Part shown: piece after piece, positions 33,596-59,248 of the stretch
Position numbering within the stretch: the first letter of the stretch is position 1
How the letters are laid out: the number at the start of each line of letters is the position of its first letter
NCBI RefSeq assembly: GCF_000026945.1
Contig: NC_012863.1
Coordinates: forward strand, 649,501-713,500
Reading direction: 5' to 3'
Length of the DNA: 64,000 nucleotides
Origin: Candida dubliniensis CD36
Taxonomy: Eukaryota; Ascomycota; Pichiomycetes; Serinales; Debaryomycetaceae
The notes under the pieces: generated by a model
What the model saw: only the letters and a program-made list of their open reading frames with translations
The model's database searches: none
What the model was told of the DNA's origin: nothing
Made by a program: the position numbers and the translations under genes

Positions 33596-35146
33596 TTTGA
33601 TGAAAAAGATAATAAAAAAAAAAAAAAGTATAAATAACCTTCAACGTCTTGACAGCAGAATTTCAAACAAATTAGGAATTTACATATCTATATACACTTT
33701 TGTTTATTTAGCATGGCAGACCTCACGGAACAACTACCTAAAGGATATGACGATTTGTCAACACCTACTATATTCAACGACAGGAATTTGCATCCAATTG
33801 CAAAATCATTCACCACAAACATTCTTATAGTTGGTGGGGCTTATAGTGGGTTATCTGCTTTGAGGTCTCTACAGCTACGTTTAGATGAGCAAATAGAACT
33901 CTTTAAACAAAAGCAGCCATCCTCACCAGCCAGGAAATTGTCACTTACCATAGTAGAGCCACGAAATGGGCTATTGAACATCCTTGGCATCCCTAAATCA
34001 ATTGTGGATTCTGCATTTGCAAAGACCCAATTTGTCCCTTTCAAGGACCTACACAATTGTCAGTTCACCAACATATTTTCTGATTCCCAGGACGAGTACG
34101 ACATATCGTGGTTTGGCAACGACAATGAATGGCTCGACATAAACTATGTGCATGGAAGAGTGACATATTTGGACCAGCACAAGGCACAGTATACACTTGG
34201 GTCACCTGCATCTGAGAAGGCCATTATTGAGTTTGACTATGTGATTTTGGCCACGGGGCGAGATAGAAATTGGCCCACTACGCCTCTGGCCACGACATAC
34301 CGCCAGTACATGCTTGAAATGGATAATACACGACAGGAGATTGCCAATGCCGATACCATCAGCGTTATTGGTGCTGGGGCGGTGGGTATTGAGTTTGCCG
34401 GGGATATCCAGACCGAGTTCCCACACAAGACCGTCAATCTAATCCACCCACACGAGTGTTTCCCACAGGAACCGTTGTCCAACGAGTTCAAAAAGCTCAC
34501 GCAGGACTCACTTGAACGAGCAGGCATAAATGTGTATCTAAACACCAGAATCAAACCTGAATTGACAGAGAAACGTCATGGCGACCTTGCAACGACAAAC
34601 AATAAGATAATCCATTCCAACCTAAACATATGGAGCTGTTCCAAACACAACAACATTGGGTTCCTCTCTCAGCACATCTGTGAGAATTACGCGACAAGCA
34701 CTAAAAACTTGTCCGTCAACCAATACTTGCAGTTGTACAGTCCCGAAACAAACACCACAATCAAAAACTTTTTTGTGTTGGGAGATTTAGTGGAGTTGCC
34801 AATTATCAAGTCTGCCGGATGGGCCATGTACATGGGCCGACAAGTGGCAAACAATTTGAGCCATTTGATATTTAATGGGGTTTTTGTTGAACCGTTCCCG
34901 GACTTGAATGCGATTCCGTACGGGATGGTGATTGTTGGTGGCAACAACGAGATTATCAGCGAACTAGCAGGCGAGGTTGAAGTTGACAATGAACATTATA
35001 AACAAGAGTATGAGGACTACTGTATAGGTAAGATTAGAGCAACCATAGATATGTAATTACTTCCCCTCGCCGCTCAAAGATTTTGTGTAAACAATAGAAG
35101 GGGAAAAGGGAATTCAAGTGGTATTTGAATGTTGGAATCGTATATT
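33596..35146 (+). repeat. Left arm of a long inverted duplication
   Basis: About 1.55 kb that recurs in opposite orientation at 57701-59248. By eye the arms differ at about 15-20 positions, so they are about 99% identical. The borders are sharp: similarity starts at TTTGATGAAAAAG, 117 bases before the ATG, and ends about 90 bases past the stop. Each arm therefore carries a whole gene with its core promoter and terminator. The arms flank about 22.5 kb. Confidence 0.95.
33713..35056 (+). CDS. AIF/AMID-type FAD-dependent NAD(P)H oxidoreductase, copy 1
   Basis: This 447-residue pyridine-nucleotide-disulphide-type flavoprotein is related to AIF/AMID (yeast Aif1). The FAD Rossmann motif is VGGAYSG at residues 40-46, the NAD(P)H Rossmann motif is GAGAVG at 220-225, an ATG motif (ILATGRDRNWP) lies near 180, and the second FAD motif (FVLGDLVELP) near 357. 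There is no clear mitochondrial presequence; residues 1-35 are a polar extension. The coding sequence is more GC-rich than its neighbours and uses CTG in places (Ser in this clade). Its twin at 57791-59134 differs at four residues as drawn. Family members oxidise NAD(P)H and some are linked to cell death. The specific role here is unknown. Confidence 0.93.
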   Translation: MADLTEQLPKGYDDLSTPTIFNDRNLHPIAKSFTTNILIVGGAYSGLSALRSLQLRLDEQIELFKQKQPSSPARKLSLTIVEPRNGLLNILGIPKSIVDSAFAKTQFVPFKDLHNCQFTNIFSDSQDEYDISWFGNDNEWLDINYVHGRVTYLDQHKAQYTLGSPASEKAIIEFDYVILATGRDRNWPTTPLATTYRQYMLEMDNTRQEIANADTISVIGAGAVGIEFAGDIQTEFPHKTVNLIHPHECFPQEPLSNEFKKLTQDSLERAGINVYLNTRIKPELTEKRHGDLATTNNKIIHSNLNIWSCSKHNNIGFLSQHICENYATSTKNLSVNQYLQLYSPETNTTIKNFFVLGDLVELPIIKSAGWAMYMGRQVANNLSHLIFNGVFVEPFPDLNAIPYGMVIVGGNNEIISELAGEVEVDNEHYKQEYEDYCIGKIRATIDM

Positions 35147-42230: not shown

Positions 42231-44882
42231 ATGCCAATCACATCACTTGAATCGTACTTATTTGAACGCAAATTAGCACACACAAGCTCTATTGAGATCT
42301 TAGAAAATGCCGTTATCGGGATCGACGTTGAACACTATTTGAGTCGAATTTACACTTTTAAAAAGGAACAATTTTTGCCAGCAATTGGAGGAGCACCTTC
42401 CTCATTAAGAGATTATATTAAATCAGACTTGAAGGTGTTTCAAGAGTTTAATATTAAACCCATTTTTGTTATATCTGGGTTACAAACTCAATTGCAACAA
42501 AAGTATAAAAATGATTTGAACGAATTTGATACACAGCATGTTGAAAATATTTGGAATAAAATTAATACCAAGGATCCTTACAGTCATGGTTCTCATCATC
42601 AACATCCTCATTTTCACAATGCCATAATTGAGAATTTCCGGAATTTAAATGAATCATTGCCGATCTATTCCATGATTAACTATATAATCAAATTCTTCTT
42701 AGAATTTGACATTGATTATATGATAAGTCCCTACGATGCATCGTTTCAATTGTCATATTTTTATCAACGTGGAGTCATCGACTCAGTATATGGTTCAACC
42801 GATTTGTTACTTACTAAAATTGATAAGTTTATTTTAGGAATGGAATTTCAATCAAAGGATTTCAAATTTGTCAATAAAAGTAAAGTACTAAAGGCATTGA
42901 ATTTAAATGAACAGCAGTTTCTTGATTTGTGTATAATTGTTGGCTGTGGGATCCAACCGGAAACTTTCCCGCTATTCCCAGCATTATCCAATAAACCACC
43001 TTCGGGGGGAAGTGTGTCATCATCTTCGTCAACATCCTCATTTGGAATGGGTAGCTCTGCTGTTGTTAGTGGTGGTGCTGGTGGTACTGTTGTTGGACCA
43101 GGTGCTGGGTCGCAGTTGAATTATTTCAAGATTGGATTGGATACTCTTTATCAGTATGCTCAATTCAGCGGAGACAATTCGAGTTTATTGGGGTATATTA
43201 TTTCTCTTAATAATCCTAAATTATTAGACTTGTATTACAAGGGTGTGTGTTCTATCCGGTATATACCGATTTTAAACCAGGAAGGGTATGTCGAATTGTA
43301 CCATGCTGCTATGGCCAAATTAGGATTGAGTGAAAATATTGATTATTTGCATGAGGAAGAAGAAGATGTCGGTGGTGAAGTACAAGAAGAAAAGCAGGAA
43401 GGTAAAATTGGAAATGCAGAGGGTAAACCAACAAAACAAGAAACAGGACAAGAGGGTGACGCAAGTGATGAAAGATCAAGTATTGATTCTAGTATTTCCC
43501 ATAGATCAGTGAGGATCCCAAATGATGTTCATGAAATCATATCACAAAGATTACCACCTGAACTCTATTTTTACCAATCTATGGGATTATTGCCTTTGTC
43601 ATTATTGGGATCAATAGTGAAAGGAGAATTAGAAATAAGACCACCAATAGAAGGTAGCACTGGCAGCAAGAGTAATGAATCGTACAAGAATTTGATTACC
43701 CTGAAGTTTTATGAGGAATTGTTAGATTCACAATTCAATTTATTAACTCAGTTTTTGGCTAGATATTATCAAGTAAAAAAGATTAGAGTTAAATATTGGT
43801 TTAAAAACGATATTTTAGAATTGAATAATCGATTCACACCCCCAATTAGCAAGAAATTGAACAAATTTATTCTTGCTAATGATGGGAATGGTGAAAATTT
43901 TGTCATTAATAGGTTTTTCCAATCCAGGCTTGATGGCGAATATACTTCAACCAAAACTGTTGAGACAAAGGATGATATTATTTCCACTGTCTTATTGAGA
44001 GTGTTGCATCTTTATGGAATTGTGAATGAAAAATCGGAGCTATTGACCATTGGAAGAATATTGGTCGAATTTGCCAAGAGTGCTGATAACGAAGTGAGTC
44101 AAGAAGAGGTTGAGCATATAATATTGCTTGTATTATTATTGAATTCAAAAGTATTGACATTAAATGAACCAAGCAAAGAGTATACTGATGTTTCTAATTA
44201 TTACAAAACAAGTATGTTAAATCAACAACAAAACCCCAATCAATTCAGCAAACAAGGTCTTACAGCTGATGTGATTAAAAAGATCACCTTAATTTCAAGG
44301 ATATTCTCGTTCAAGAAATTAAATGTTTCACCAATTAATTATCAAGGCCCGATTTCTAGAAGCTTATTGAACTTTAGAAGTCATGTTGAATTCATCAACC
44401 ACAATTTGATTAACACTTTGCAGTTGGTCCTCATTGATTTCGTAGTTCGACAGGAGCAAAATAATATTAAAACTGAATATGAAACTAAAGATGATTGGTA
44501 CAAATTGATTGACCAATTGCCATTTTATAAAGGTTTGGATAATACATTAATGGGTGTGATTAGTGAAATTTATTTTGAAATGGCAATTAAACAAAAACAA
44601 GAACAACCACAATTGACGAAGCAAGAAATAATTAAGAATTGTCAAAATCATTTGAGTGAGCATATATTTTTGGTTAATATTCCATCCTTTAACATTAATG
44701 TCAATGGTGTTAACTCGACTTCTAGATCGCAATTAATCGATGATTTCAAAGGAGGGGTAGAGTGGTGGAAGAAATTCATAATATTGATTGATATCATAAA
44801 TAAAACTGACAAGAAGTTGGTGGATGATAATTTGTATCGAGAAATCAAACAAACAGACGAGTTTTTGAAAGAGTTTGTATAG
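42231..44882 (+). CDS. MKT1: Mkt1 post-transcriptional regulator
   Basis: This 883-residue protein matches Mkt1. The N-terminal XPG/FEN-like domain is about residues 1-250 (SLESYLFERKLAH, then VIGIDVEHYLSRI), with the DYMISPYDASFQLSYF block near 162. The C-terminal Mkt1 domain is about 500-880. Mkt1 binds Pbp1 (ataxin-2) and Puf-regulated mRNAs and influences translation and mitochondrial function. The acidic nuclease residues are only partly kept, as in other Mkt1 proteins, so it is probably not an active nuclease. A Gly/Ser-rich insert (about residues 258-302) and an acidic Glu/Gln insert (about 375-405) are low-complexity additions. Length exceeds yeast Mkt1 (830) because of these. Confidence 0.95.
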   Translation: MPITSLESYLFERKLAHTSSIEILENAVIGIDVEHYLSRIYTFKKEQFLPAIGGAPSSLRDYIKSDLKVFQEFNIKPIFVISGLQTQLQQKYKNDLNEFDTQHVENIWNKINTKDPYSHGSHHQHPHFHNAIIENFRNLNESLPIYSMINYIIKFFLEFDIDYMISPYDASFQLSYFYQRGVIDSVYGSTDLLLTKIDKFILGMEFQSKDFKFVNKSKVLKALNLNEQQFLDLCIIVGCGIQPETFPLFPALSNKPPSGGSVSSSSSTSSFGMGSSAVVSGGAGGTVVGPGAGSQLNYFKIGLDTLYQYAQFSGDNSSLLGYIISLNNPKLLDLYYKGVCSIRYIPILNQEGYVELYHAAMAKLGLSENIDYLHEEEEDVGGEVQEEKQEGKIGNAEGKPTKQETGQEGDASDERSSIDSSISHRSVRIPNDVHEIISQRLPPELYFYQSMGLLPLSLLGSIVKGELEIRPPIEGSTGSKSNESYKNLITLKFYEELLDSQFNLLTQFLARYYQVKKIRVKYWFKNDILELNNRFTPPISKKLNKFILANDGNGENFVINRFFQSRLDGEYTSTKTVETKDDIISTVLLRVLHLYGIVNEKSELLTIGRILVEFAKSADNEVSQEEVEHIILLVLLLNSKVLTLNEPSKEYTDVSNYYKTSMLNQQQNPNQFSKQGLTADVIKKITLISRIFSFKKLNVSPINYQGPISRSLLNFRSHVEFINHNLINTLQLVLIDFVVRQEQNNIKTEYETKDDWYKLIDQLPFYKGLDNTLMGVISEIYFEMAIKQKQEQPQLTKQEIIKNCQNHLSEHIFLVNIPSFNINVNGVNSTSRSQLIDDFKGGVEWWKKFIILIDIINKTDKKLVDDNLYREIKQTDEFLKEFV

Positions 44883-45611
44883 ACTTGAATATATTTGAAA
44901 TCTTATCTTCTGTTTTTTTTTTTAAAAAAAGGCACTTTATATTACAATTAAACTCTTTCGTATAGAGATACTCTATATCTAAATTAAATATACAGAATAA
45001 AAAATAAATAGCAATACACATCAAGCTCGTTCTGCAAAGCAATAATACTATCATTATCACGACTCTTATGATAGCATGAATCTCTGGAGTCTGGGTGGAA
45101 AGGTTAAGATACCCCCATCTACTTTCTAGTTCCCGAGTGCCACATTCATAGAATAGCCATTAAAGTATATTATTTTCCTGTTAATTGAGATCTTGTTTTG
45201 GAAACTGTCAATTCAAGCTATCAAAAATGGAGTGGAAATATTGGTCCGGAAATAAACATAATAATGAAATATGAAACGAAAGAAAAAAAAAAAACCACTC
45301 CTATCAATTTAATAAAAATCAAAATGTATAACTTTATTGTTATTATCTAACATTATCAGCAAATATAGCAAAAAAACAATAATCTTAAACAAAAAAAAGG
45401 TGAAATAGTATGGATGAAAAATACAGGTTGAGCTAGAAATGGTAGAGGGGTGATGAGGTGGGTTATAGGCAATTTCCTTGAATAACTGAATGTGACTCAA
45501 GAGATAAGGATTGACAAGGTGATTGGGTTGCTAAACTGAAATAAATAAACTCTAAATTGAATTGAATTGAATCCGACAACTGATGTAAAAGAAGGTTTTT
45601 CAACCGAGTCT
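44883..45611. other. Intergenic region after MKT1
   Basis: About 0.7 kb. It has a T/A tract near 44910-44930 and an A run near 45280. The minus-strand frame 45309-45500 starts at TTG and is low in protein character. No gene is supported. Confidence 0.5.
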
Positions 45612-45794
45612 TTATTTAACCTCTGGATTATTCTTTACGTATTTCTTCACCAAATCAGGCTTTCTCAGTTTGACGTTATCGATCAGCATCCAACCGGTTT
45701 TTGAATTTTCAAATTCAATTTCTAAATAGTAACCACCAGGACCATAATCTCGATGACCAATTATGTTTTTTATTATTGGTTCTGTATTACTCAT
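45612..45794 (-). CDS. Mini chromodomain-like protein, subtype I (copy 1)
   Basis: This is a 60-residue ATG-started ORF. It reads as a nearly complete chromodomain: the first strand IIKNIIGHRDY, then Gly-Gly-Tyr-Tyr-Leu-Glu-Ile-Glu-Phe, a Gly-Trp where the domain usually has its Trp-Glu, and the closing helix KPDLVKKYVKNN, equivalent to the PEL...YxKK helix of HP1-type chromodomains. It shares about a third of its residues with the ORF at 50823-51032 (EPxI, I-x-x-H, the E-x-E-F strand, KP-(D/E)-L, YVK). The protein is little more than the domain. The expected function would be binding a methyl-lysine tail or another chromatin protein, but the aromatic cage is only partly present. The family assignment is by eye. 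Confidence 0.7.
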   Translation of the reverse strand: MSNTEPIIKNIIGHRDYGPGGYYLEIEFENSKTGWMLIDNVKLRKPDLVKKYVKNNPEVK

Positions 45795-45821
45795 GATAGA
45801 ATGTTGCTTTCAATTATATGA

Positions 45822-46021
45822 GTACGGCGTTCAGGTATAGATTTAGATATACGCAAATATGACTCCTTTGTTGTGTTTCTTCTCACCAATTGGGATGTGT
45901 TGATGGAAAGCAATGTTTTTGATTGTGTTAATCTCTTGGGGGTGGAGGAGTTGAAAAGATATTTTAAAAAGAAAACACAAAAATTTGAATTGGAAGCAAG
46001 AAAAGATTGCAAATATGGAAG
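45822..46021 (+). other. Open plus-strand frame with chromodomain-like ending, followed by GTAAGT
   Basis: From 45822 the plus frame is open for about 66 codons and ends next to GGTAAGT (46020-46026), a good 5' splice-site match. The translation contains Phe-Val-Val-Phe-Leu-Leu-Thr-Asn-Trp, then VEELKRYFKKK, which resembles strand 3 and the last helix of the nearby mini chromodomain ORFs. There is no upstream ATG in frame; the first is the Met of MESNVFD. It overlaps the promoter side of the minus-strand ORF. This could be a chance open frame. Confidence 0.2.
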
Positions 46022-46124
46022 GTAAGTTAGTAGTGGTAGTGGTAGTAATAGTAATGATCTGAAGAAGAAGACAAAGAAGATAAGTATGATGAGGGGCGGA
46101 GAAAACGAAGGATGGGAAGCTGGA

Positions 46125-46147
46125 GGGGGTGGAGGGCAGGGGTTGGG
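46125..46147 (+). other. Canonical G-quadruplex motif
   Basis: Four G runs (5, 3, 4 and 3 G) with loops TGGA, CA and TT satisfy the G3+N1-7 rule on the plus strand. A fifth GGG at 46114-46116 lies just upstream. It sits about 330-350 bases upstream of the ATG of the mini chromodomain ORF at 45612-45794. Such G-rich DNA is exceptional in this AT-rich window. Confidence 0.75.
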
Positions 46148-46237
46148 TAAAAGAAGGCAAAAAAAAGAAGGACAATAAATTTGGGTGGCTTAAAAACAAT
46201 TGGAAAAAAAAAAGAATAAAATTTTCAGGGGGAAATT

Positions 46238-46324
46238 TACCACTTATTTATGTTTGTGGAAAATGTCTTTTGATATAATTACTACTATTGTGGTCAATGT
46301 ATAACAATAGTAAATAAAGTGGTA
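46238..46324. repeat. Two-part imperfect inverted repeat
   Basis: Outer arms TACCACTTATTTA (46238-46250) and TAAATAAAGTGGTA (46311-46324) pair with one extra base. Inner arms TACTATTGT (46283-46291) and ACAATAGTA (46304-46312) pair perfectly around 12 bases. Together they could form a bulged hairpin. It may be a structured RNA element, a small decayed mobile element or a dimer binding site. None of these can be chosen from sequence alone. Confidence 0.45.
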
Positions 46325-46843
46325 TTAATAATGGGGAATGTCTTGTTTTATGTATACGAAAGAAATAATTGTCACTGCCAGAGCAAATCCCTTTTAGTAA
46401 AATTGGAACAAGAGGGATTCACATTTGGAGAATCAACCACCATAAAGAATAGGAGCAACAACAAAAAAAAAAAAGAGTCAAAAACAACTATTTGAAAGAA
46501 AATGAATTATGAGTTACCTTACTAAGAGTGAAGTTAATTGACAAATGAATCACATATAAGAAAAAGTGCAACAGGAAACATAACCCTTTGTTTTTAGTTT
46601 TGCTGGTGGATTCCTAATTTTAGAAACTTGAAAATACAAATATTGAAAACAATCACTAAATGTAACACAATGGTCTACATTCCTGATCATGAAATATATG
46701 CAATAGAGTGAAAAAAAAAAAAAAAAAAGATAATTGGCGACTTCACTTATCAGCTCGGTTTATAAATATTTGGGTCAACACAGCTTCACCTCGACCTCTT
46801 TTTTCTCTCGCAGAAAGATTCAAAGTTAAGCTAATACTACAAC

Positions 46844-46945
46844 ATGAACAAGAACATAAATTCAAAATATTCTAAAAAACTGAAACAAAGACAAAGCTTC
46901 AATCGAAAAGAAACTAAGAAAAAGAAAAAATCGGAAATAGAATAA
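46844..46945 (+). CDS. Basic micro-ORF, 33 codons, with TATA box
   Basis: An ATG at 46844 opens a 33-codon frame ending in TAA. It encodes a very basic, Lys/Asn/Arg-rich peptide with a KKKKK run near its end. A TATAAATA word at about 46761-46768 lies 80 bases upstream, and the leader is pyrimidine-rich, so this looks like a real promoter. The product might be a peptide, or the transcript could be noncoding with a fortuitous ORF. No homologue is recognised. Confidence 0.25.
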   Translation: MNKNINSKYSKKLKQRQSFNRKETKKKKKSEIE

Positions 46946-47108
46946 TGTTGAGTGGGTTTTTTTAGTGTTGAAGAAAGACGCGCCTGTGTTTGTGCGTATG
47001 TGTGGTAAATATCAAATTAATCTACGACGATGATGTAATGGTTTGCAGTTTTGGGTGATTGTTGAAGAAGTGGTAATAAAAAAATTTTTTTTCTACTCTC
47101 CATCTTTA

Positions 47109-47132
47109 ACCGCGCGACAACTAAGGCGCGGT
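47109..47132. repeat. GC-rich inverted repeat ACCGCGC-N10-GCGCGGT
   Basis: Seven-base perfect arms (47109-47115 and 47126-47132) separated by ten bases, followed by TACGGACAGGAAACCG, which adds further CGG/CCG triplets. A GC-rich palindrome in such AT-rich DNA is typical of a site for a dimeric zinc-cluster factor. Which factor is unknown. Confidence 0.5.
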
Positions 47133-47656
47133 ACGGACAGGAAACCGATAATCGTGTGCTTAATCAATAGTAATCCCAAGTTTTGAATTCTGCTTCTTAT
47201 CTTCAAGTTATATGTTGTTCATTCTATTCAGCTATCACTTTTCACACATCGCAATAATAGGAACACTTGCAGATATGTTAAATTGAATCTAGAGCATGGC
47301 AATTACTTGTTTTCTTGGAACTATAGTCAAGATTGGTTATGAGTGGAGAGATGAGATTTTCAGTATTAATGTCATTTGCACGACTTTTGCAACACTTGTT
47401 ATACATCGTTTGAGATTGATTGGCATTACTTCTGGTGGAAATTGATATCAACTCGCTGTCGCCAGTTCTTAATTGAACCGGAAGAAAATATGCTATTTAA
47501 AAGATTTATTTCAAAAATATAAAAACGAACATCTACATATATATCACAACTTTAAATGAACTTGACCAATTACAAGCAAATGGACAACGGCAAATAGAAG
47601 CACATCTTTTAAACATCTTTTCCTAACAAAAAAGTAGTAGGACTAACGCTATACCA

Positions 47657-47866
47657 TTATTCATCGGTGTGCTCCAAATGGTAATCCTGCAAATCAGGAT
47701 GGTCATCTAAATAATCATCAGTCATATCGGGAAATTCTTCTAAAGCGTCATGTAGTGCAAACCATTCTATAATACCTCCTTCAAATAGAAAACGAAGAAA
47801 TACACCTCTTTTAGTCTTTTTATTAGCCGTGATTCGCAAGGCTTCCCTGGCTTCCAATTGAGTCAT
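47657..47866 (-). CDS. Mini chromodomain-like protein, subtype II (copy 1)
   Basis: This is a 69-residue ATG-started ORF. The core is REALRITANKKTKRGVFLRF with a Phe-Leu-Arg-Phe-Leu-Phe strand, an Glu-Trp-Phe-Ala-Leu-His segment holding the single Trp, and an acidic C-terminal helix with MTDDYLDDHPDLQDYHLEH. It aligns with the ORF at 49047-49247 over its whole length: KK-T-x(2)-G-x-F-L, W-x-A-L-H, YL-x(3)-PDLQ-x-YH-x-EH. The relation to subtype I and to chromodomains is through the spacing of the beta strands, the Trp and the closing PEL/PDM helix, so it is weaker than for subtype I. Very acidic (theoretical charge strongly negative). Confidence 0.65.
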   Translation of the reverse strand: MTQLEAREALRITANKKTKRGVFLRFLFEGGIIEWFALHDALEEFPDMTDDYLDDHPDLQDYHLEHTDE

Positions 47867-49046
47867 TTATTCCACAATTAGTAAAATTAGTATTGCCGAC
47901 CGTGTGAAGATATGAATATTGACAATTGAAAATGAAACCAAAACAAGATTCTCTTTTCTGGTTTGGGAAGTATAATCTCAAAATCTAATTAAGAGAAACC
48001 AAGAATAATAAGAATATAAAAGTGGAAAGAATGAAAGATATTATGATTTTGATAATGAAAAAAAAATACAGCTTTATATATACAAATGTTACTCCCCATC
48101 TGTGTACGTTTTATGTCCGCAATAGCGTCATCCACAAGTTGAATAGTCGCTCCAGCTTGTTGTATTTTTAAGATATGACGAATAAAAAGTCTGAAAAATT
48201 CTTAATGATGTGTAATTGTATTCTTTATTTTAATAAAGAAAAGTTCAAAACAAGGGATCAGCTTTTGAAGTTTAATTCTATCTATCCCTCTTTCTTCTAT
48301 ATCAATTAAAACTTAATAGTAACAATTGTTGGAAAATAAACTTCTAGTCGTCATTTAGGTGAGGCTGGGCAGTCTACAATAAAATCAGCGATTTAAGAGC
48401 CTTAGTAATGGTTGTACTTCAGGATCTAATATTCTTCACACATCAACAAAGTCTTACAGACTATAATAAAATGTCACTCCTTGATTAATGTGTGTTTATA
48501 TATTAGATGATTATGGATTGGTAAACATTTGTAATGAATCAATTTTTCCAATCGAACATTTATGATGTATCATTAAATGTTGTATATAGTTTTTGTTTTA
48601 AATTTGAGTTTTAGGTTGCAACAAAGTAAGCTGTGGCAAATTTATAATCCCATGCAATTTGTTTGACTTTTACTAGAAGCATTTTGCTGTAATTATCACA
48701 TTCTTGTAACTATGTTTAGCTTTTTGAAAAACTTCTCATACCTATATTTCAAATCAGGATTTTTACGAAAATAATTTAAATTGTTATCAAAACACCAAAA
48801 ATCATATATTCATTTCCAAAGACAAATCCCCTCTAACACACTATGATTCATACATTGCACACACGTAATACGTTCCTATCTACAAGTTGTGTGAAAATTA
48901 TCTACTTAAAAAAATTTATATACCTTGATCTCACAGTATAATTCTAACTTGACCACAAAATTAGCTCAATTCAACAAAATTCCACACATATAGCAAAACT
49001 TTCAAAAATCATCCCTTCACTACTAGCACCCATTTCTCCTGTATTT
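47867..49046. other. Spacer between subtype II ORFs, 1.2 kb
   Basis: AT-rich DNA containing the possible decayed relative at 48088-48200 and two similar words, AGTCTACAATAAAAT (about 48371) and AGACTATAATAAAAT (about 48458), of unknown meaning. No intact gene is seen. Confidence 0.45.
48088..48200 (-). pseudogene. Possible decayed mini chromodomain relative
   Basis: On the minus strand, a short open stretch reads LFIRHILK, then IQLVDDAIADIKR. This lines up with FLRFLF and FALHDALEEF of the intact ORF at 47657-47866 with one insertion. Another frame of the same bases reads TFYSSYLKNTTSW, which also resembles the strand-plus-Trp region, so a frameshift would be needed to join them. It is preceded by TTTTTCAG, which could be a 3' splice site. 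Evidence is weak and rests on short alignments. Confidence 0.2.
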
Positions 49047-49247
49047 TTAGCCGGGATTATGTTCTGCATGATACTCTTGTAGATCGGGATATAAATGTAA
49101 ATAGTGAAGAGTCAATTCAGGAGCAGTTTGTATGGCAATGTGTAATGCTAACCACGCGGAATGACCCGTTATAAATAACACATAAAGAAATGTACCTGTA
49201 GGGGTCTTTTTATGATTCAAAATTTGGATTACTTTTAAATGTTCCAT
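49047..49247 (-). CDS. Mini chromodomain-like protein, subtype II (copy 2)
   Basis: This is a 66-residue ATG-started ORF. It opens with LKVIQILNHKKTPTG, the classic first strand and His-containing turn of a chromodomain, then a hydrophobic strand FLYVLF, Ala-Trp-Leu-Ala-Leu-His, and the closing helix APELTLHYLHLYPDLQEYH. It pairs with the ORF at 47657-47866 (KK-T, W-x-A-L-H, PDLQ-x-YH-x-EH). Immediately before the ATG is an 11-12 base T tract and a run of eight C on the coding strand. The retained Pro-Glu-Leu and the Ile-x-x-Ile-Leu-x-His start make this copy the link between subtypes I and II. Confidence 0.68.
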   Translation of the reverse strand: MEHLKVIQILNHKKTPTGTFLYVLFITGHSAWLALHIAIQTAPELTLHYLHLYPDLQEYHAEHNPG

Positions 49248-50822
49248 CTACTTCAAAAAAAAAAAGGGGGGGGGAACAACAAAAAAATATATAATAAAAA
49301 GATCTTATCGTTGTATATATCACAAATTGAAAATTGGAATATACATGAAAAAGGCAGATTCACTCTAAGCAAAAGCCAAACAAAAGGAAACCAGAAAAGA
49401 AGTAGCTGTAATTGTAATGATGCAAAGAACTCGTTTATATATAGAGAGATCGTATTGTGAGTGTGAGTATATGCATATGCATGAATGAATGAATGGGTTA
49501 GTAACAACTTATACCAGAGAGATGACTTTATTGTTTATTTGGAAACTGTAATTTTTTCAATCAATTTTATTACAAATTTAATAGCAAACAATTCAAGCAA
49601 AAACAAGAATACAAATATCTGTTATTCAGTTGTCTATCTAAAATAATTCAAGAGCAAAATGAGTAAAAAATGAATTAGTACCTGAACTTTTTGTTATCTT
49701 TTAGTCGAGATATTTAACAATACAATAAGTGCCACCACCACCACCATAGGCAACATAAAAAGGGCATTGCTTAAAATACAAAATTATGAAAGCATAATAA
49801 TAGCAATAATAACCTTATTTTTCATTACAATCCAAGAACAAAAAATAGGCTGTGATTCATTACACTCTAAATCAACTCGTTCCAGTTTGATAACAAGAAC
49901 AGAACAAATAAAATGAAATCGCGTAAATTTAAGAACAGGTTGTCAATTCAACTAAATTCACAATATAATTGATTTATCTTGTGCCTGGAATCAATATTTT
50001 AAAAAACCTCTTTTACTTTTTATCAAAAGTGTATTGTATATTATCCTTTTAATTTTGACTTCTAGATTTGATGCAAAAACTGTTATCTACAAATACTAAC
50101 ATTTCTGATTGAAACTAACAAAGAGGAAAGATTTCAGTAATGAATAGGGGGTTCTTGTTGTTGTTGTTTTTGTTGTTGTTGTTGTGATTGATTATATAGT
50201 TTGTCTTGTAGAGTGGCATCTTTTTTAGACGACAAGAAAACAAAGCAAAACAGACGCGTGTAGGTCTGGAAATTGATAACAATGTGTCACCAATTTTTAC
50301 TATATACAATGAATAGTTGTCTTGTAAATTAACTTAAATCAAACTTTATCAAATATTTGTCTACTTCTTTTTTCTTTGAGTTCCACCTCTTCTGTGATAT
50401 GTATTGTTTATGGCTAATTGGAAAAGAAGTCGAGGAATGTAATGTTGATAAGTTTCTGACAAGCAAAATCACCACCATTTTTATGCTCTCATTTTTTTTT
50501 TTTTGCAACCACTCTTATGGATATTCAAGTTCGTAACTGTTTGATACTACAAATAAATACATATACTTCACATTACACAGAAAAATACACTATACACTAT
50601 ACACTCGGTCTATCACGTTGACCCAAATTTAATTTAAACCATCATCTTCTAGTAACCGTTTCAAAAATGGAAATAAATTTCTTGCTACACTAAAAGTGGT
50701 GATAAATCAGCCAATTAGTCAATTAAAATCAAAAACATAAGATTTTATGAAAATCGTCGCAGATAATCTTGTCAAACCTATCATTCTAGTTCAATCCATG
50801 ACAAAACTGTCACCAATGTAAT
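49248..50822. other. Spacer, 1.57 kb
   Basis: AT-rich. It contains a run of eight or nine G after an A run at about 49257-49273, a (CCA)n tract near 49733-49745, a (TTG)n tract near 50155-50185 and an ACGCGT at 50254-50259, about 1 kb upstream of the ORF at 49047-49247. The frame ending at 49702, which contains a Gly run, follows from the (CCA)n tract and is not a gene. Confidence 0.45.
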
Positions 50823-51032
50823 CTAATCACCTTTAGGGAAAATATTTGCTTCTTTGAATTTTTTCACGTAATTACGAGTCAATTCTGGTTTGGCGTTTTT
50901 CAAATATTCATAATTAATGAATCCTCCAGTTCCATCACCAAATTCAACTTCAACGTATATTTTACCATCGTCGTATTTTTGATGACTAATGATTTTTTGA
51001 ATATTAGGTTCAGGGTTCTTGAATAATACCAT
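50823..51032 (-). CDS. Mini chromodomain-like protein, subtype I (copy 2)
   Basis: This is a 69-residue ATG-started ORF. The pattern is EPNIQKIISHQKYDDG, then Tyr-Val-Glu-Val-Glu-Phe, a Gly-Gly-Phe in place of the usual Trp, and the helix KPELTRNYVKKFKEAN. The Pro-Glu-Leu-x(3)-Tyr-Val-Lys-Lys-Phe-Lys ending is strikingly like the last helix of HP1/Polycomb-type chromodomains. It is the best domain match of the four. The remaining tail (IFPKGD) is short. Function would be expected in chromatin binding. The missing cage Trp argues for altered ligand choice. Confidence 0.72.
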   Translation of the reverse strand: MVLFKNPEPNIQKIISHQKYDDGKIYVEVEFGDGTGGFINYEYLKNAKPELTRNYVKKFKEANIFPKGD

Positions 51033-52758
51033 GACTATGTTGACTTATATAGAACTTTATTTGGGTTCAAATATTGTGGAGGTATTTGTGTGAGACGTAT
51101 AAACAAGTAAGTTATAGATATACAAGAAAATGAAAACGAATGGCAAGGTTTGTATATATGAACTATAACTTTGGGTTTTCAAAAAAGTATGAATTCTTTA
51201 ACTCTGAAATTGAAATGATAAAAAAAAATTTAGGCGAATTGTGTTCACATAAGAATATATATATATAGTTAATGTAATTGAATGGTGGTGGAAATAGTGG
51301 CTGAATAATTTATTTTAAACCATGTTTATTGGCAGTTCATGATTAGATCATTCTTAGGACTCTGAAATTAAAATTTGGAATAAAGTAAAACCAAAAAAAA
51401 AAAAAGAAAAGGTAAAGACAAAGCTTGGTAGTTATATAACATAATAATGTTGGATTTGACGTGTTTCAGATAATTATAATTCATTCATTGATATAGCAAA
51501 GGAAAATATGTATAGAGTATAATCACCTTTTAACAAAGTTGGGTTCAAGAAAAAGGTAAAAATAATACAAACAACAAACCCGAAAAGTAGAATAATTGTG
51601 ATACGTAATAAAAAAAAAGAAAATAAGACATTTTCCATTATCAATTGAATATGTGTAATTTAATAGGCGGTAAAAGTTTAAATGAATAGTTTTGTTTCCT
51701 CAGTGGAATTATCAACTAAGATCGTACTCGTAATATCTTGAATTCCTAAATATGAATTGTGCCAGACCTTTTGAGTCATACGTTTAAAAGTTTCACTATT
51801 TTGAAATTTTCAGAGTTCATATTGTCCAATTCAGTTTTCCTTGCTAAATGATTTTGTTTGACTAGCACTCCTTTTTTTTCATTTTTATTTAGAATTTGTT
51901 GATGATTTTAATCAATGTAAATTTGTAATTATCACCAAATTCTTTATTTTTAGACTATTTTGATTCATTCTGCTTGACTTCGTCTTGTAATGTTTAATTT
52001 AATTTTTTCTTTGTATGTGTATATGTTGATTTTGTAAGTTTATACTTTTTAACTTGGTTTTTGTATTTCGTGTTCCTTGAATTTGTTGTGTTCTTTTTAT
52101 TCACTTTTTTGATTCTAACTTCTGTTATTTTACTACAACACTACTATTTATCAGGTGTTTTACAATTCTTATTTTGTATATTCATGGCACTTTCTGCAAT
52201 TAAAATTAAACATCATACTAAACACAATGAAATCCGAACAATATCACAGTCTTTGCACCGCCTTGATGTCATGTGTTCTTGTACCTTCTAATTAAACTCT
52301 ATATATTCACCTACTTTTTCAAACAATAGAAACAAAAAAAACGTTGATACAGTTACACGAGCAAAATCCATCATATGCTTAACAACAACACTAATGCTTT
52401 CGCAGCCACTAAGAAATTTGCTCCCCTCCGTAACTCATATCTACCCCTAAACTATCTTAAAACTCAATGCTCCAAATGAAATATTACACTAGTCTACTGA
52501 TTTCAATTGTAAACCAATTGTAAATGTTTGGCAACTGGTATTACAAGTTTCCCTCAAATCTATCCAATCACAAACTATAAAAAAAGTAACAATGTCACGT
52601 GATACCGATTATAGATTTCTGTATTTATAGCGCAAACGAAAAAAATTCCTCATTAACAACAACGATATCAAAATACCAGTGGAGTTGATGTTTACATATA
52701 TAATCTTGTAACACGGACAACAGACAATAAGCAAGGGTCAAATAAACAACAGCTAGAG
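51033..52758. other. Intergenic region upstream of AIM24, 1.7 kb
   Basis: Upstream of both the minus-strand mini chromodomain ORF and AIM24. It has an (AT)n tract near 51258-51268 and A/T runs. The frame 52061-52291 starts at TTG and is mostly hydrophobic T-rich coding, so it is not accepted. The AIM24 side has CCAAT (about 52564) and TCACGTGA (52595-52602). Confidence 0.5.
52595..52602. promoter_or_regulatory. Cbf1-type E-box upstream of AIM24
   Basis: TCACGTGA, an eight-base palindrome matching the preferred Cbf1 site, lies 157 bases before the AIM24 ATG, with a CCAAT box about 30 bases further up. Both types of site are common at mitochondrial genes in Candida. Confidence 0.5.
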
Positions 52759-53871
52759 ATGTTGAGTACTTGCAGAAACAATCCAATAGTGGCTAAGTCA
52801 TTTAAATATTCATCTTTAACAAAGTCCTCAATACGACAAATTATCACGTCAACTACAAACAACCAGCAAACAATACTCAATAGTGATACAATAATCATTG
52901 ACAAGCCATTGGTAACAGGATCAGGTCCTTTTGTTGAGGTGCCAAAATTTAAACCGATTGGCAACCCAGCCAATTTCTTACAAGTCGTTTTACCTCAATC
53001 ATCAAAGTTGAATGTCCGCTCAATTTCAAGCTCAATAATTGCCATTGACAATAGTAGCACAAAGCAGAAACAAGATAATGAAGCATTTGTTGTGACCAAC
53101 AAACATTCAGTAATTGACTATCAAGAAATATATAGTAAATGCAGTCTCAACTTGATCATTCAAGGTAACAATGAGAATAACTTCAAATTGCTTGAATTGA
53201 AAAACCAACAACTGCAAATCCAAGATGATTGGATAATTCTTCAAGAATCTAATTTAATTGGTTGGATTGATAAATTCAAACTAAATATTGAATCAATTGA
53301 TTTATTAGAGAAATTTTCAAGTTTAAAAATCAATGGTAATGGATATATTTTAATTGATGGTGGCAGTAATGAAGTTTATGAATTGAATTTACATGAAAAC
53401 GAAGACATGTTGGTCAATTTGAACAGTCTAATTGCTATTAATAAACCGTCATCTTCAATTACAACAGATTTGAAATATCAAGTGATTCCTTATTTTTACA
53501 ATATAACCAATCCAATTAACTCATTGGTAAGAATCCCCAAATTCTCAATCCCTAAATATGGAATAGCGAGCGAATTATTTAATCCAATAAGAAAATCAAT
53601 GAACACGTTCACTAGCAATTATAAGAATTTCGTCCAAAACATAAGAAATGAAGCAAATAAGTATCATTGGTTGAAAATCATTCGAGCAACCACAATTAAA
53701 ATTTATCAATGCATTTATAGTAAATTGTTTTACAACAGTGAAGGAGTGTTGTTAAGAAGAAACCCCATATTTATGAAGATTAAAGGTCCTGCTAAACTCA
53801 TTATGAACAATAACGAAACGATAAATAACAACCGATTATTCACTTACAAAGAAATTAAATCAATCAATTAA
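52759..53871 (+). CDS. AIM24: Mitochondrial inner-membrane protein Aim24
   Basis: This 370-residue protein belongs to the Aim24 (TRAP-like/AIM24) family. The N-terminus is basic and Ser/Thr-rich without acidic residues (residues 1 to about 30), a typical mitochondrial presequence. The AIM24 domain begins near residue 55 (GPFVEVPKFKPIGNPANFLQV) and runs to about 260. Yeast Aim24 (394 residues) sits in the inner membrane and helps MICOS integrity and respiration. The C-terminal part has a conserved WLKIIRATTIKIYQ-type segment. Confidence 0.88.
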   Translation: MLSTCRNNPIVAKSFKYSSLTKSSIRQIITSTTNNQQTILNSDTIIIDKPLVTGSGPFVEVPKFKPIGNPANFLQVVLPQSSKLNVRSISSSIIAIDNSSTKQKQDNEAFVVTNKHSVIDYQEIYSKCSLNLIIQGNNENNFKLLELKNQQLQIQDDWIILQESNLIGWIDKFKLNIESIDLLEKFSSLKINGNGYILIDGGSNEVYELNLHENEDMLVNLNSLIAINKPSSSITTDLKYQVIPYFYNITNPINSLVRIPKFSIPKYGIASELFNPIRKSMNTFTSNYKNFVQNIRNEANKYHWLKIIRATTIKIYQCIYSKLFYNSEGVLLRRNPIFMKIKGPAKLIMNNNETINNNRLFTYKEIKSIN

Positions 53872-56138: not shown

Positions 56139-57362
56139 TTATTTGACTACTGCCCCTATAAATCTCTTACATGTTGCTAACCGATAATCCTGATACTCTT
56201 GCACCATTGATATGGGGTTGATCTCCAAATTTCTCTTCACTTCATGGATTATCTTACCTTCACCACCAACAATGGTCAATTTATGAGAATCTATTTGATC
56301 AAACGGAATTCTTGACAATTGCAAAGGATTCTCAACTATGGAATTATAAACATTAGTTCCAGCTTGAATTCCAGTATGGAATGCCCAACCAGCTGATTTA
56401 ATTGTGGACAATTCAATCAAATCCCCCACAGCGTAAATATTTGGTATGTTTGGTATTTGCAAATAATCATTGGTTTGAATATTATGATTTGCAGTTATGC
56501 GAATGTCTAAATCGGGAGATAAATAATCGAGATTGTTTCTGAAAGAAGTAGCCCATATATTTAAATTTGACTCAATTGTTCTTCCATCAGTAGTTTTCAA
56601 ATTGTATGTTCCCCTATCGTTTTCTGCTGCTGTAGCTTTTAAGGTATCTATTCTTGTATTTAAGAACACGTTAATATTAGCAAGCTTTAACGATTGTAAG
56701 GTTTTGTTTTTGAATGTTTCCAGTATTGGTTCTGGTGGCAAAGTGCCATGAGGATGAATCAAATTAACAATCTTATTAGGATAATGCAATTTAATTTCTG
56801 CCGCCAATTCTATACCAACGGCACCACCACCAATAATGCTAATAATTGGACTTTCCTCAATTTTGTTGTTTGTGAATTCAATTTCATTCAAATACAATTC
56901 AAATGTAGAAGCCATTGGATTGACTGGCCAATTTCTGTTTCTTCCTGTTGCTAAGATTGCATAGTCATACTCAATGCTTGATTCGTCGATGTCGTTGATA
57001 GAGTAACTAATTTTGTTGCTGGCTAATTTGGTTACTTTCCCTTGAATATAATTCAATACCAAATTGTTATTGTCAGTATTTGTATTTCTTGTTAATTGAA
57101 GTTTTAAATCATTGGAAGTACTGATCACATTATCAAATTTTAAAAAATCACAAAATGGAACATATTGTTTGCTTGCAAAATCTTTGTTAACAATTGATTT
57201 TGGTAGTCCTAATATATTCAAGAACCCTGATTTTGGTTCAATTAGCGTGATTGATATTGGTTTTGAAATAGTGCTTAAGTTTTTGGTAATTAACAGTTTT
57301 AATGTATTTAAAGCAGCTAACCCAGCGTATGAACCTCCAATGATTACCACTTTTGATGCCAT
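56139..57362 (-). CDS. AIF/AMID-type FAD oxidoreductase, diverged paralogue
   Basis: This 407-residue flavoprotein is of the same family as the twin genes in the inverted arms. It has the FAD motif IIGGSYAG (residues 7-14), the ILATGRNRNWP motif near 144, the NAD(P)H motif GGGAVGIE near 179 and the second FAD motif IYAVGDLIELS near 318, followed by IKSAGWAFHTG. It lacks the 35-residue N-terminal extension of the twins. Codons are AT-rich like the neighbours, unlike the GC-richer arms. It sits 429 bases downstream of the stop of copy 2 and on the same strand, so it is a tandem paralogue. The twin was probably copied out from this locus, or both arose from an older tandem. Confidence 0.92.
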   Translation of the reverse strand: MASKVVIIGGSYAGLAALNTLKLLITKNLSTISKPISITLIEPKSGFLNILGLPKSIVNKDFASKQYVPFCDFLKFDNVISTSNDLKLQLTRNTNTDNNNLVLNYIQGKVTKLASNKISYSINDIDESSIEYDYAILATGRNRNWPVNPMASTFELYLNEIEFTNNKIEESPIISIIGGGAVGIELAAEIKLHYPNKIVNLIHPHGTLPPEPILETFKNKTLQSLKLANINVFLNTRIDTLKATAAENDRGTYNLKTTDGRTIESNLNIWATSFRNNLDYLSPDLDIRITANHNIQTNDYLQIPNIPNIYAVGDLIELSTIKSAGWAFHTGIQAGTNVYNSIVENPLQLSRIPFDQIDSHKLTIVGGEGKIIHEVKRNLEINPISMVQEYQDYRLATCKRFIGAVVK

Positions 57363-57700: not shown

Positions 57701-59248
57701 AATACACGATTCCAACATTCAAATACCACTTGAATTCCCTTTTCCTCTTCTATTGTTTACACAAAATCTTTGAGCGGCGAGGGGAAGTAATTACATATCT
57801 ATGGTTGCTCTAATCTTACCTATACAGTAGTCCTCATACTCTTGTTTATAATGTTCATTGTCAACTTCAACCTCGCCTGCTAGTTCGCTGATAATCTCGT
57901 TGTTGCCACCAACAATCACCATCCCGTACGGAATCGCATTCAAGTCCGGGAACGGTTCAACAAAAACCCCATTGAATATCAAATGGCTCAAATTGTTTGC
58001 CACTTGTCGGCCCATGTACATGGCCCATCCGGCAGACTTGATAATTGGCAACTCCACTAAATCTCCCAACACAAAAAAGTTTTTGATTGTGGTGTTTGTT
58101 TCGGGACTGTACAACTGCAAGTATTGGTTGACGGACAAGTTTTTAGTGCTTGTCACGTAATTCTCACAGATGTGCTGAGAGAGGAACCCAATGTTGTTGT
58201 GTTTGGAACAGCTCCATATGTTTAAGTTGGAATGGATTATTTTATTGTTTGTCGTTGCAAGGTCGCCATGACGTTTCTCTATCAATTCAGGTTTGATTCT
58301 GGTGTTTAGATACACATTTATGCCTGCTCGTTCAAGTGAGTCCTGTGTGAGCTTTTTGAACTCGTTGGACAACGGTTCCTGTGGGAAACATTCGTGTGGG
58401 TGGATAAGATTGACGGTCTTGTGTGGGAACTCGGTCTTGATATCCCCAGCAAACTCAATACCCACCGCCCCAGCACCAATAACGCTGATGGTATCGGCAT
58501 TGGTAATCTCCTGTCGTGTATTATCCATTTCAAGCATGTACTGGCGGTATGTCGTGGCCAGAGGCGTAGTGGGCCAATTTCTATCTCGCCCCGTGGCCAA
58601 AATCACATAGTCAAACTCAATAATGGCCTTCTCAGATGCAGGTGACCCAAGTGTATACTGTGCCTTGTGCTGGTCCAAATATGTCACTCTTCCATGCACA
58701 TAGTTTATGTCGAGCCATTCATTGTCGTTGCCAAACCACGATATGTCGTACTCGTCCTGGGAATCAGAAAATATGTTGGTGAACTGACAATTGTGTAGGT
58801 CCTTGAAAGGGACAAATTGGGTCTTTGCAAATGCAGAATCCACAATTGATTTAGGGATGCCAAGGATGTTCAATAGCCCATTTCGTGGCTCTACTATGGT
58901 AAGTGACAATTTCCTGGCTGGTGAGGATGGCTGCTTTTGTTTAAAGAGTTCTATTTGCTCATCTAAACGTAGCTGTAGAGACCTCAAAGCAGATAACCCA
59001 CTATAAGCCCCACCAACTATAAGAATGTTTGTGGTGAATGATTTTGCAATTGGATGCAAATTCCTGTCGTTGAATATAGTAGGTGTTGACAAATCGTCAT
59101 ATCCTTTAGGTAGTTGTTCCGTGAGGTCCGCCATGATAAACAAACAAAAGTGTATATAGATATGTAAATTCCTAATTTGTTTGAAATTCTGCTGTCAAGA
59201 CGTTGAAGGTAATTTATACTTTTTTTTTTTATTATCTTTTTCATCAAA
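57701..59248 (-). repeat. Right arm of the long inverted duplication
   Basis: Reverse-complement copy of 33596-35146, about 1.55 kb and about 99% identical by eye. The outer border is at TCATCAAA (59241-59248) and the inner border near 57701. Beyond both borders the sequences are unrelated. No terminal repeats or target duplications are obvious, so duplication by recombination is more likely than transposition. Confidence 0.95.
57791..59134 (-). CDS. AIF/AMID-type FAD-dependent oxidoreductase, copy 2
   Basis: This 447-residue twin of the gene at 33713-35056 has the same motifs at the same positions (VGGAYSG 40-46, GAGAVG 220-225, LGDLVELP near 358). Four residues differ as drawn: Ala/Thr in the QEI(A/T)NAD segment, Gln/Lys in GDI(Q/K)TEF, Thr/Ile in KPEL(T/I)EK, and Ala/Val in ENY(A/V)TST. 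The open frame extends three codons upstream to TTG. The ATG at 59134 matches the start of copy 1. It is the tandem neighbour of the diverged paralogue and likely represents the ancestral location. Confidence 0.93.
   Translation of the reverse strand: MADLTEQLPKGYDDLSTPTIFNDRNLHPIAKSFTTNILIVGGAYSGLSALRSLQLRLDEQIELFKQKQPSSPARKLSLTIVEPRNGLLNILGIPKSIVDSAFAKTQFVPFKDLHNCQFTNIFSDSQDEYDISWFGNDNEWLDINYVHGRVTYLDQHKAQYTLGSPASEKAIIEFDYVILATGRDRNWPTTPLATTYRQYMLEMDNTRQEITNADTISVIGAGAVGIEFAGDIKTEFPHKTVNLIHPHECFPQEPLSNEFKKLTQDSLERAGINVYLNTRIKPELIEKRHGDLATTNNKIIHSNLNIWSCSKHNNIGFLSQHICENYVTSTKNLSVNQYLQLYSPETNTTIKNFFVLGDLVELPIIKSAGWAMYMGRQVANNLSHLIFNGVFVEPFPDLNAIPYGMVIVGGNNEIISELAGEVEVDNEHYKQEYEDYCIGKIRATIDM

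Follow-up and report, generated by a model that had tools for sequence, protein, structure and literature searches.

The question raised by this locus is whether a long, gene-poor interval of a yeast chromosome holds short genes and, if so, what kind of protein they encode. The stretch analysed (the window) comprises 64,000 nucleotides of Candida dubliniensis CD36 (contig NC_012863.1, positions 649,501 to 713,500 of the forward strand). Its 7,876-bp interval between MKT1, ending at 44882, and AIM24, starting at 52759 (the flanks are named by their Pfam matches, MKT1_N/C and AIM24), is the largest of the 21 gaps separating the 22 open reading frames (ORFs) of 150 or more amino acids (aa) in the window; the median gap is 428 bp and the runner-up 1,537 bp. 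The original prediction, made from the DNA letters, had placed four ATG-started ORFs on one strand of this gap and read each of them as an isolated chromodomain-like protein, and the four ORFs were found exactly there (Table 1). We consider it rather probable that they are members of a family of six or more single-domain miniproteins with a chromo-type fold, encoded at two loci and closest to the chromoshadow domain of fungal HP1, which would be putative monomeric peptide adaptors and probably remnants of HP1.

The ORFs c45, c47, c49, c50, d1 and d2 form one family, spread over two unlinked loci and numbering six genes or more; the six-frame searches of the whole genome (14.6 Mb) score only the best candidates, so that six is a lower bound. 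In these searches, the c50 query found c45 with an expectation value (E) of 9.9e-8, and c49 and c47 matched each other with E of 8.5e-12 (c49 query) and 6e-12, while the DNA of the two pairs is barely similar (best blastn E 0.053 for c45/c50 and 0.017 for c47/c49). The four ORFs of the window are considered genes because of this protein homology, which is far above chance. The c50 query also led to the small ORF d1 on contig C2 (E 0.22; reciprocally, d1 found c50 at E 0.12), and d1 and the neighbouring d2 matched each other with E of 7e-15 to 8e-15. The two are flanked by a gene for a C2H2 zinc-finger protein on one side and by a protein kinase gene on the other; 13.7 kb separate the starts of these neighbours.

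Table 1 Coordinates of the family members and of the gap that contains four of them
Feature	Position	Strand	Description
c45	45612..45794	-	60 aa, ATG, subfamily A; 38-39% identity to c50, genome-wide E ~1e-7
c47	47657..47866	-	69 aa, ATG, subfamily B; 44% identity to c49
c49	49047..49247	-	66 aa, ATG, subfamily B; pairs with c47
c50	50823..51032	-	69 aa, ATG, subfamily A; predicted strand-strand-strand-helix-helix, nearest solved structure the Swi6 chromoshadow domain
MKT1–AIM24 gap	44883..52758	.	contains c45, c47, c49 and c50; longest ATG ORF 73 aa
d1	L003:1489-1695, contig C2 ~2,982-2,984 kb		68 aa
d2	L003:2506-2706, contig C2 ~2,982-2,984 kb		66 aa, ~1 kb from d1

The unity of the family was also seen with profiles that were built with one group left out (A: c50, c45 and P0002; B: c47 and c49; D: d1, d2, P0009 and P0010; the P-numbered sequences are relatives from other assemblies) and searched against 1,931 open frames from the window and four other loci. 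The A+D profile recovered c49 (E 4e-4) and c47 (7e-3), the B+D profile c45 (3e-6) and c50 (7e-6), and the A+B profile d1 (6e-8); thus, five of the six members were recovered with E of 6e-8 to 7e-3, the best non-members standing at 0.15, 0.52 and 0.65. The motif proposed for the four window copies was retained in part: the last helix has the same Pro and Tyr in every copy, the Trp column is filled in all four (by Phe in c50), and the His of the first motif occurs in three of them, being absent from c47.

When 5.8 billion proteins were searched by profile, 16 matched at E <=10, namely the products of the six genes described here and ten proteins from other assemblies. Three of the latter (P0002, P0009 and P0010) keep the frame across the whole domain, whereas a lack of conservation in related species was one of the outcomes that the original prediction named as refuting it: P0002 is identical to c50 at 63 of 69 positions, P0009 to d1 at 56 of 68 positions of the shared part (one codon has been lost or gained in frame, and the tail is longer), and P0010 to d2 at 46 of 66 positions of the shared part, with a longer start. 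Additionally, c45 and c50 diverge most at third codon positions, 42 of 60 of which differ, compared with 44 of 120 at the first and second positions (p 5e-5). As judged from the sequences, it is the shared protein sequence together with these frame-keeping relatives that supports coding.

The fold was modelled for two of the six members, c50 (AlphaFold predicted local distance difference test (pLDDT) score 74, core 82-84, predicted template modelling (pTM) score 0.55) and d1 (pLDDT 79, pTM 0.62). Both models consist of three strands and then two or three helices, in the same order, with core blocks at pLDDT 82-88, and in both the predicted three-stranded sheet is packed on the C-terminal helices. 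When the models were compared with 350,542 Protein Data Bank (PDB) chains by Foldseek, ranks 1 and 2 were taken for each of them by the chromoshadow domain of Swi6 (1e0b) and rank 3 by that of Chp2 (6fto). The best E values were 0.013 and 0.016 for the two models, with probability 1.00; the top three matches of both had probabilities of 0.99-1.00, template modelling (TM) scores of 0.64-0.77 and E of 0.013-0.077, and superposition on Swi6 gave a root-mean-square deviation of 1.0-2.1 across 49-52 columns. For d1, the mouse HP1 chromoshadow domain (1dz1) followed at rank 4, and HP1 appeared again at ranks 10 and 12; among the 50 d1 matches listed there was no histone-binding chromodomain, and cpSRP43 appeared weakly at rank 9. 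In Swi6 as in d1, the Gly that follows strand 2 and the Pro of the helix are 15 residues apart when counted by eye, which agrees with the leaning towards chromoshadow domains. A chromo-type fold is thus supported by the predicted models, with the fungal HP1 chromoshadow domain, and not the chromodomain, as the nearest known structure. The description "chromodomain-like" thereby stood with respect to the type of fold, and gave way to a chromoshadow domain with respect to the nearest relative; sequence profiles support neither.

The most likely origin of the family is a remnant of an HP1-type gene, whose chromoshadow domain would have diverged and undergone tandem multiplication; an ancestor elsewhere among the chromo-fold proteins may also be considered. 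A number of results weigh against a chromoshadow origin. No Foldseek match of either model reaches E 0.001, the identity to the top chromoshadow matches is 8-14%, and the two models are not independent, their alignments sharing members. After rank 3, the c50 list contains cpSRP43, Rhino and HP1 chromoshadow domains together with chromodomains (CDYL, CDY1 and Chp1), with Polo-box domains interspersed from rank 12, and ranks 5-8 of the d1 list are unrelated folds (Rtt106 PH domains, a ribosomal protein and interleukin-8). The structural evidence therefore speaks strongly for the fold but weakly for descent, and values of E 0.013-0.077 at such identity fall short of demonstrating common ancestry.

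The sequence comparisons count on the same side. None of the nine members tested (the six of this genome plus P0002, P0009 and P0010) matched Pfam Chromo (PF00385) or Chromo_shadow (PF01393) at E <=10, where the HMMER filters discard most matches above ~0.1. The hhalign score of the family was compared with 200 column shuffles for each reference set. It was reached by 74 of them for three fungal chromoshadow sequences, by 2 for six chromoshadow sequences (score 15.7) and by 9 for ten chromodomains, six of whose sequences had been entered by hand. Searched against the 1,931 frames, hidden Markov models (HMMs) of the chromoshadow and chromodomain sets failed to set the members apart, the highest-placed being c50 at rank 6 (fungal chromoshadow, E 5), c50 at rank 37 (chromoshadow, E 19) and c45 at rank 51 (chromodomain, E 25). 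By sequence profile, the family is accordingly linked neither to chromodomains nor to chromoshadow domains. The c50 protein had no relative in viral or bacterial/archaeal contig collections, and the DNA of the gap had no match among plasmids. Searches of the genome with Chromo_shadow and with Pre-SET (H3K9 methyltransferase) also came back empty, but as their control gave no match anywhere either, these two negatives carry no weight. The original prediction had named the lack of a chromodomain match in profile searches as grounds for abandoning it, and sequence profiles returned none. The adverse results extend to the family itself, since the A+B profile missed d2 (E 6.6 among the 1,931 frames), the third-position excess is not significant for c47/c49 or d1/d2, the lengths of P0009 and P0010 are unlike those of d1 and d2, and the other seven of the ten outside relatives are broken, the domain being in part absent or shifted into another frame. 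Finally, the helix position P+4, mapped by counting in CBX1 to the dimer position I161 of HP1-beta, carries R, K, D, L, K and R in the six, so that its hydrophobic residue is not kept, and no Trp stands at P+13, the position of HP1-beta W170, in any of the nine rows.

These two positions bear on the function that might be proposed. In the portion of the work consulted, I161 (I161E) is given a role in the HP1-beta dimer and W170 in the binding of PxVxL peptides (PMC7465937); because neither the dimer residue at P+4 nor the Trp at P+13 is kept, a canonical HP1 dimer with a PxVxL groove, and canonical HP1 behaviour of the family in general, appear unlikely from the alignment. Both the helix Pro and the Tyr persist in the family; its single Trp/Phe column (F,W,W,W,W,W across the six) has a spacing that by eye differs from that of a chromodomain, and no TWEP was found in the nine rows. 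There is no full HP1 architecture, each protein of 60-69 aa having one domain. C. albicans is reported to lack the machinery for methylation of histone H3 lysine 9 (H3K9) (PMC6896017). Since the miniproteins have no separate chromodomain and the machinery for the mark is reported to be absent, an HP1-style reading of H3K9 methylation is not to be expected, and a role of the family in reading this mark is unlikely.

Chromoshadow domains dock short peptides from partner proteins. By analogy, the miniproteins could bind peptides in the nucleus as small adaptors or as competitors, and would act as monomers or via another surface, the residues for the dimer and for PxVxL binding being absent; a monomeric adaptor or competitor is our best guess. 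The wider proposal, that Candida-clade yeasts kept the HP1 chromoshadow module in the form of tandem-amplified miniproteins serving as adaptors or competitors in silencing free of H3K9 methylation, is put forward tentatively and is doubtful as a whole.

Among the other explanations of the family, the one that survives best, although we regard it as unlikely, is that these are small proteins of recent, lineage-specific origin whose chromo-like fold of three strands plus helix arose independently of HP1 and of any transposon. The lack of any sequence-level link to a known family speaks for it: searches of Pfam, NCBIfam and PDB sequences with the members gave chance-level matches only. In addition, all ten outside proteins are close to members of this genome's six, and the members are located in gene-poor gaps. 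At the same time, the two models are specifically near fungal chromoshadow domains, and the divergence among six copies, arranged in three pairs, points to a certain age.

A decaying family that was once functional, whose intact frames are partly due to chance, is a poorer explanation, and we give it little credence. It would account for the relatives of c50, c45 and d2 with partly broken frames, namely the c50-like P0003, the c45-like P0015 and the d2-like P0011-P0014 and P0016, as well as for the absence of the Trp from P0010. However, all six copies in this genome are open, c50 and P0002 share 67 of 69 positives, and some breaks may be errors of sequencing or assembly; the broken relatives as a group may reflect strain differences, decay or sequencing errors. 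It was also observed that P0012-P0014 have an identical altered continuation.

More doubtful still is the proposal that the ORFs are domesticated chromodomains of Ty3/gypsy-type integrases, which was among the origins suggested initially. The helix motif P-E-L-x-x-x-Y is one that we take to recall integrase chromodomains, and some chromodomains stand near c50 in the fold search. On the other hand, chromoshadow domains ranked above chromodomains for both models, no member matched Pfam Chromo, and the one flank tested, 45800-47656, is single-copy in the genome; the integrase idea thus found no support, no integrase having been among the sequences compared. A Pfam Chromo search of the organism's own genome pointed to three sites, which fall within two large open frames, and to no mini-gene.

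That the ORFs are meaningless products of chance is scarcely credible, for although five ORFs of 60 or more aa in the gap (the four and one 73-aa ORF) lie within the expectation from 200 first-order Markov sequences (mean 2.94; 19% reach 5), so that neither their count nor their size exceeds chance and the case for coding is one of homology, chance is contradicted by the homology searches, that is, by the protein homology of c45/c50 and c47/c49 despite near-lost DNA similarity and by the second locus with d1 and d2. The 73-aa ORF lies on the plus strand (49239-49460) among the four and is slightly longer than each of them, so the claim that nothing larger lies between them has to be corrected. 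A reading of the four as parts of a split gene was considered in a crude scan for splice signals and rejected; it gave one minus-strand candidate (47847-48457) ending inside c47 and a plus-strand candidate outside all four, and each ORF has its own ATG.

With a chromoshadow remnant of HP1 as the preferred reading, three known systems offer themselves for comparison. The likeness to the fission-yeast HP1 proteins Swi6 and Chp2 (1e0b, 6fto) consists in the predicted fold and, for Swi6 and d1, in the Gly–Pro spacing; the mini-genes differ in having neither chromodomain nor hinge, in their low identity and in the loss of the dimer residue and the peptide-binding Trp. Closest in gene form are the partial HP1 genes of Drosophila, for which the cited part of the source lists 11 chromoshadow-only instances, e.g., Umbrea/HP6 (PMC3380853). 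According to the same text, these free-standing genes arose where a full HP1 exists, were found by tBLASTn and were not seen to seed paralogues, whereas here three paralogue pairs occur in a clade reported to be without HP1. An HP1-type protein of Saccharomycotina, Lsw1 of Lipomyces starkeyi, is described in the part of the report considered as full-length (252 aa), detectable by BLAST and belonging to a lineage that retains H3K9 methylation (PMC7397231), in all of which it differs from the mini-genes. No prior description of the mini-gene family was found at the level of titles and abstract openings, subscription papers and preprints lying outside the scope of the search.

To our knowledge, the organisation of Candida-type silent chromatin, which is without H3K9 methylation and HP1, is not settled. 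If the preferred reading is true, free chromoshadow-type modules would be concrete candidate parts of it, small enough to be deleted, tagged and purified, and HP1 could be lost piecewise, with its protein-docking module left behind. The mini-genes are also a test case for genes that are overlooked in gene-poor gaps at fewer than 70 codons.

Several minor observations were made at the two loci. At the second locus, the 13.7-kb interval (L021:8963 to L014:3163; C2 ~2,972,963-2,986,663) contains, besides d1 and d2, ORFs of at most 120 aa, many of them of low complexity. The third-position G+C content is 4% in d1 and 9% in d2, which are extremely A+T-rich compared with the four window copies (26-30%). 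In the window, the MKT1-AIM24 segment is bracketed by two inverted copies of a Pyr_redox_2 oxidoreductase gene (33596-35146 on the plus strand and 57701-59248 on the minus strand), which lie ~22.6 kb apart, are 98.7% identical across an alignment of 1,551 columns and encode proteins identical at 443 of 447 aa; this pair may represent inversion-prone arms or recent gene conversion. A third gene (56139-57362, minus strand) beside one of the arms has a start that, in the ORF list, resembles the same oxidoreductase family.

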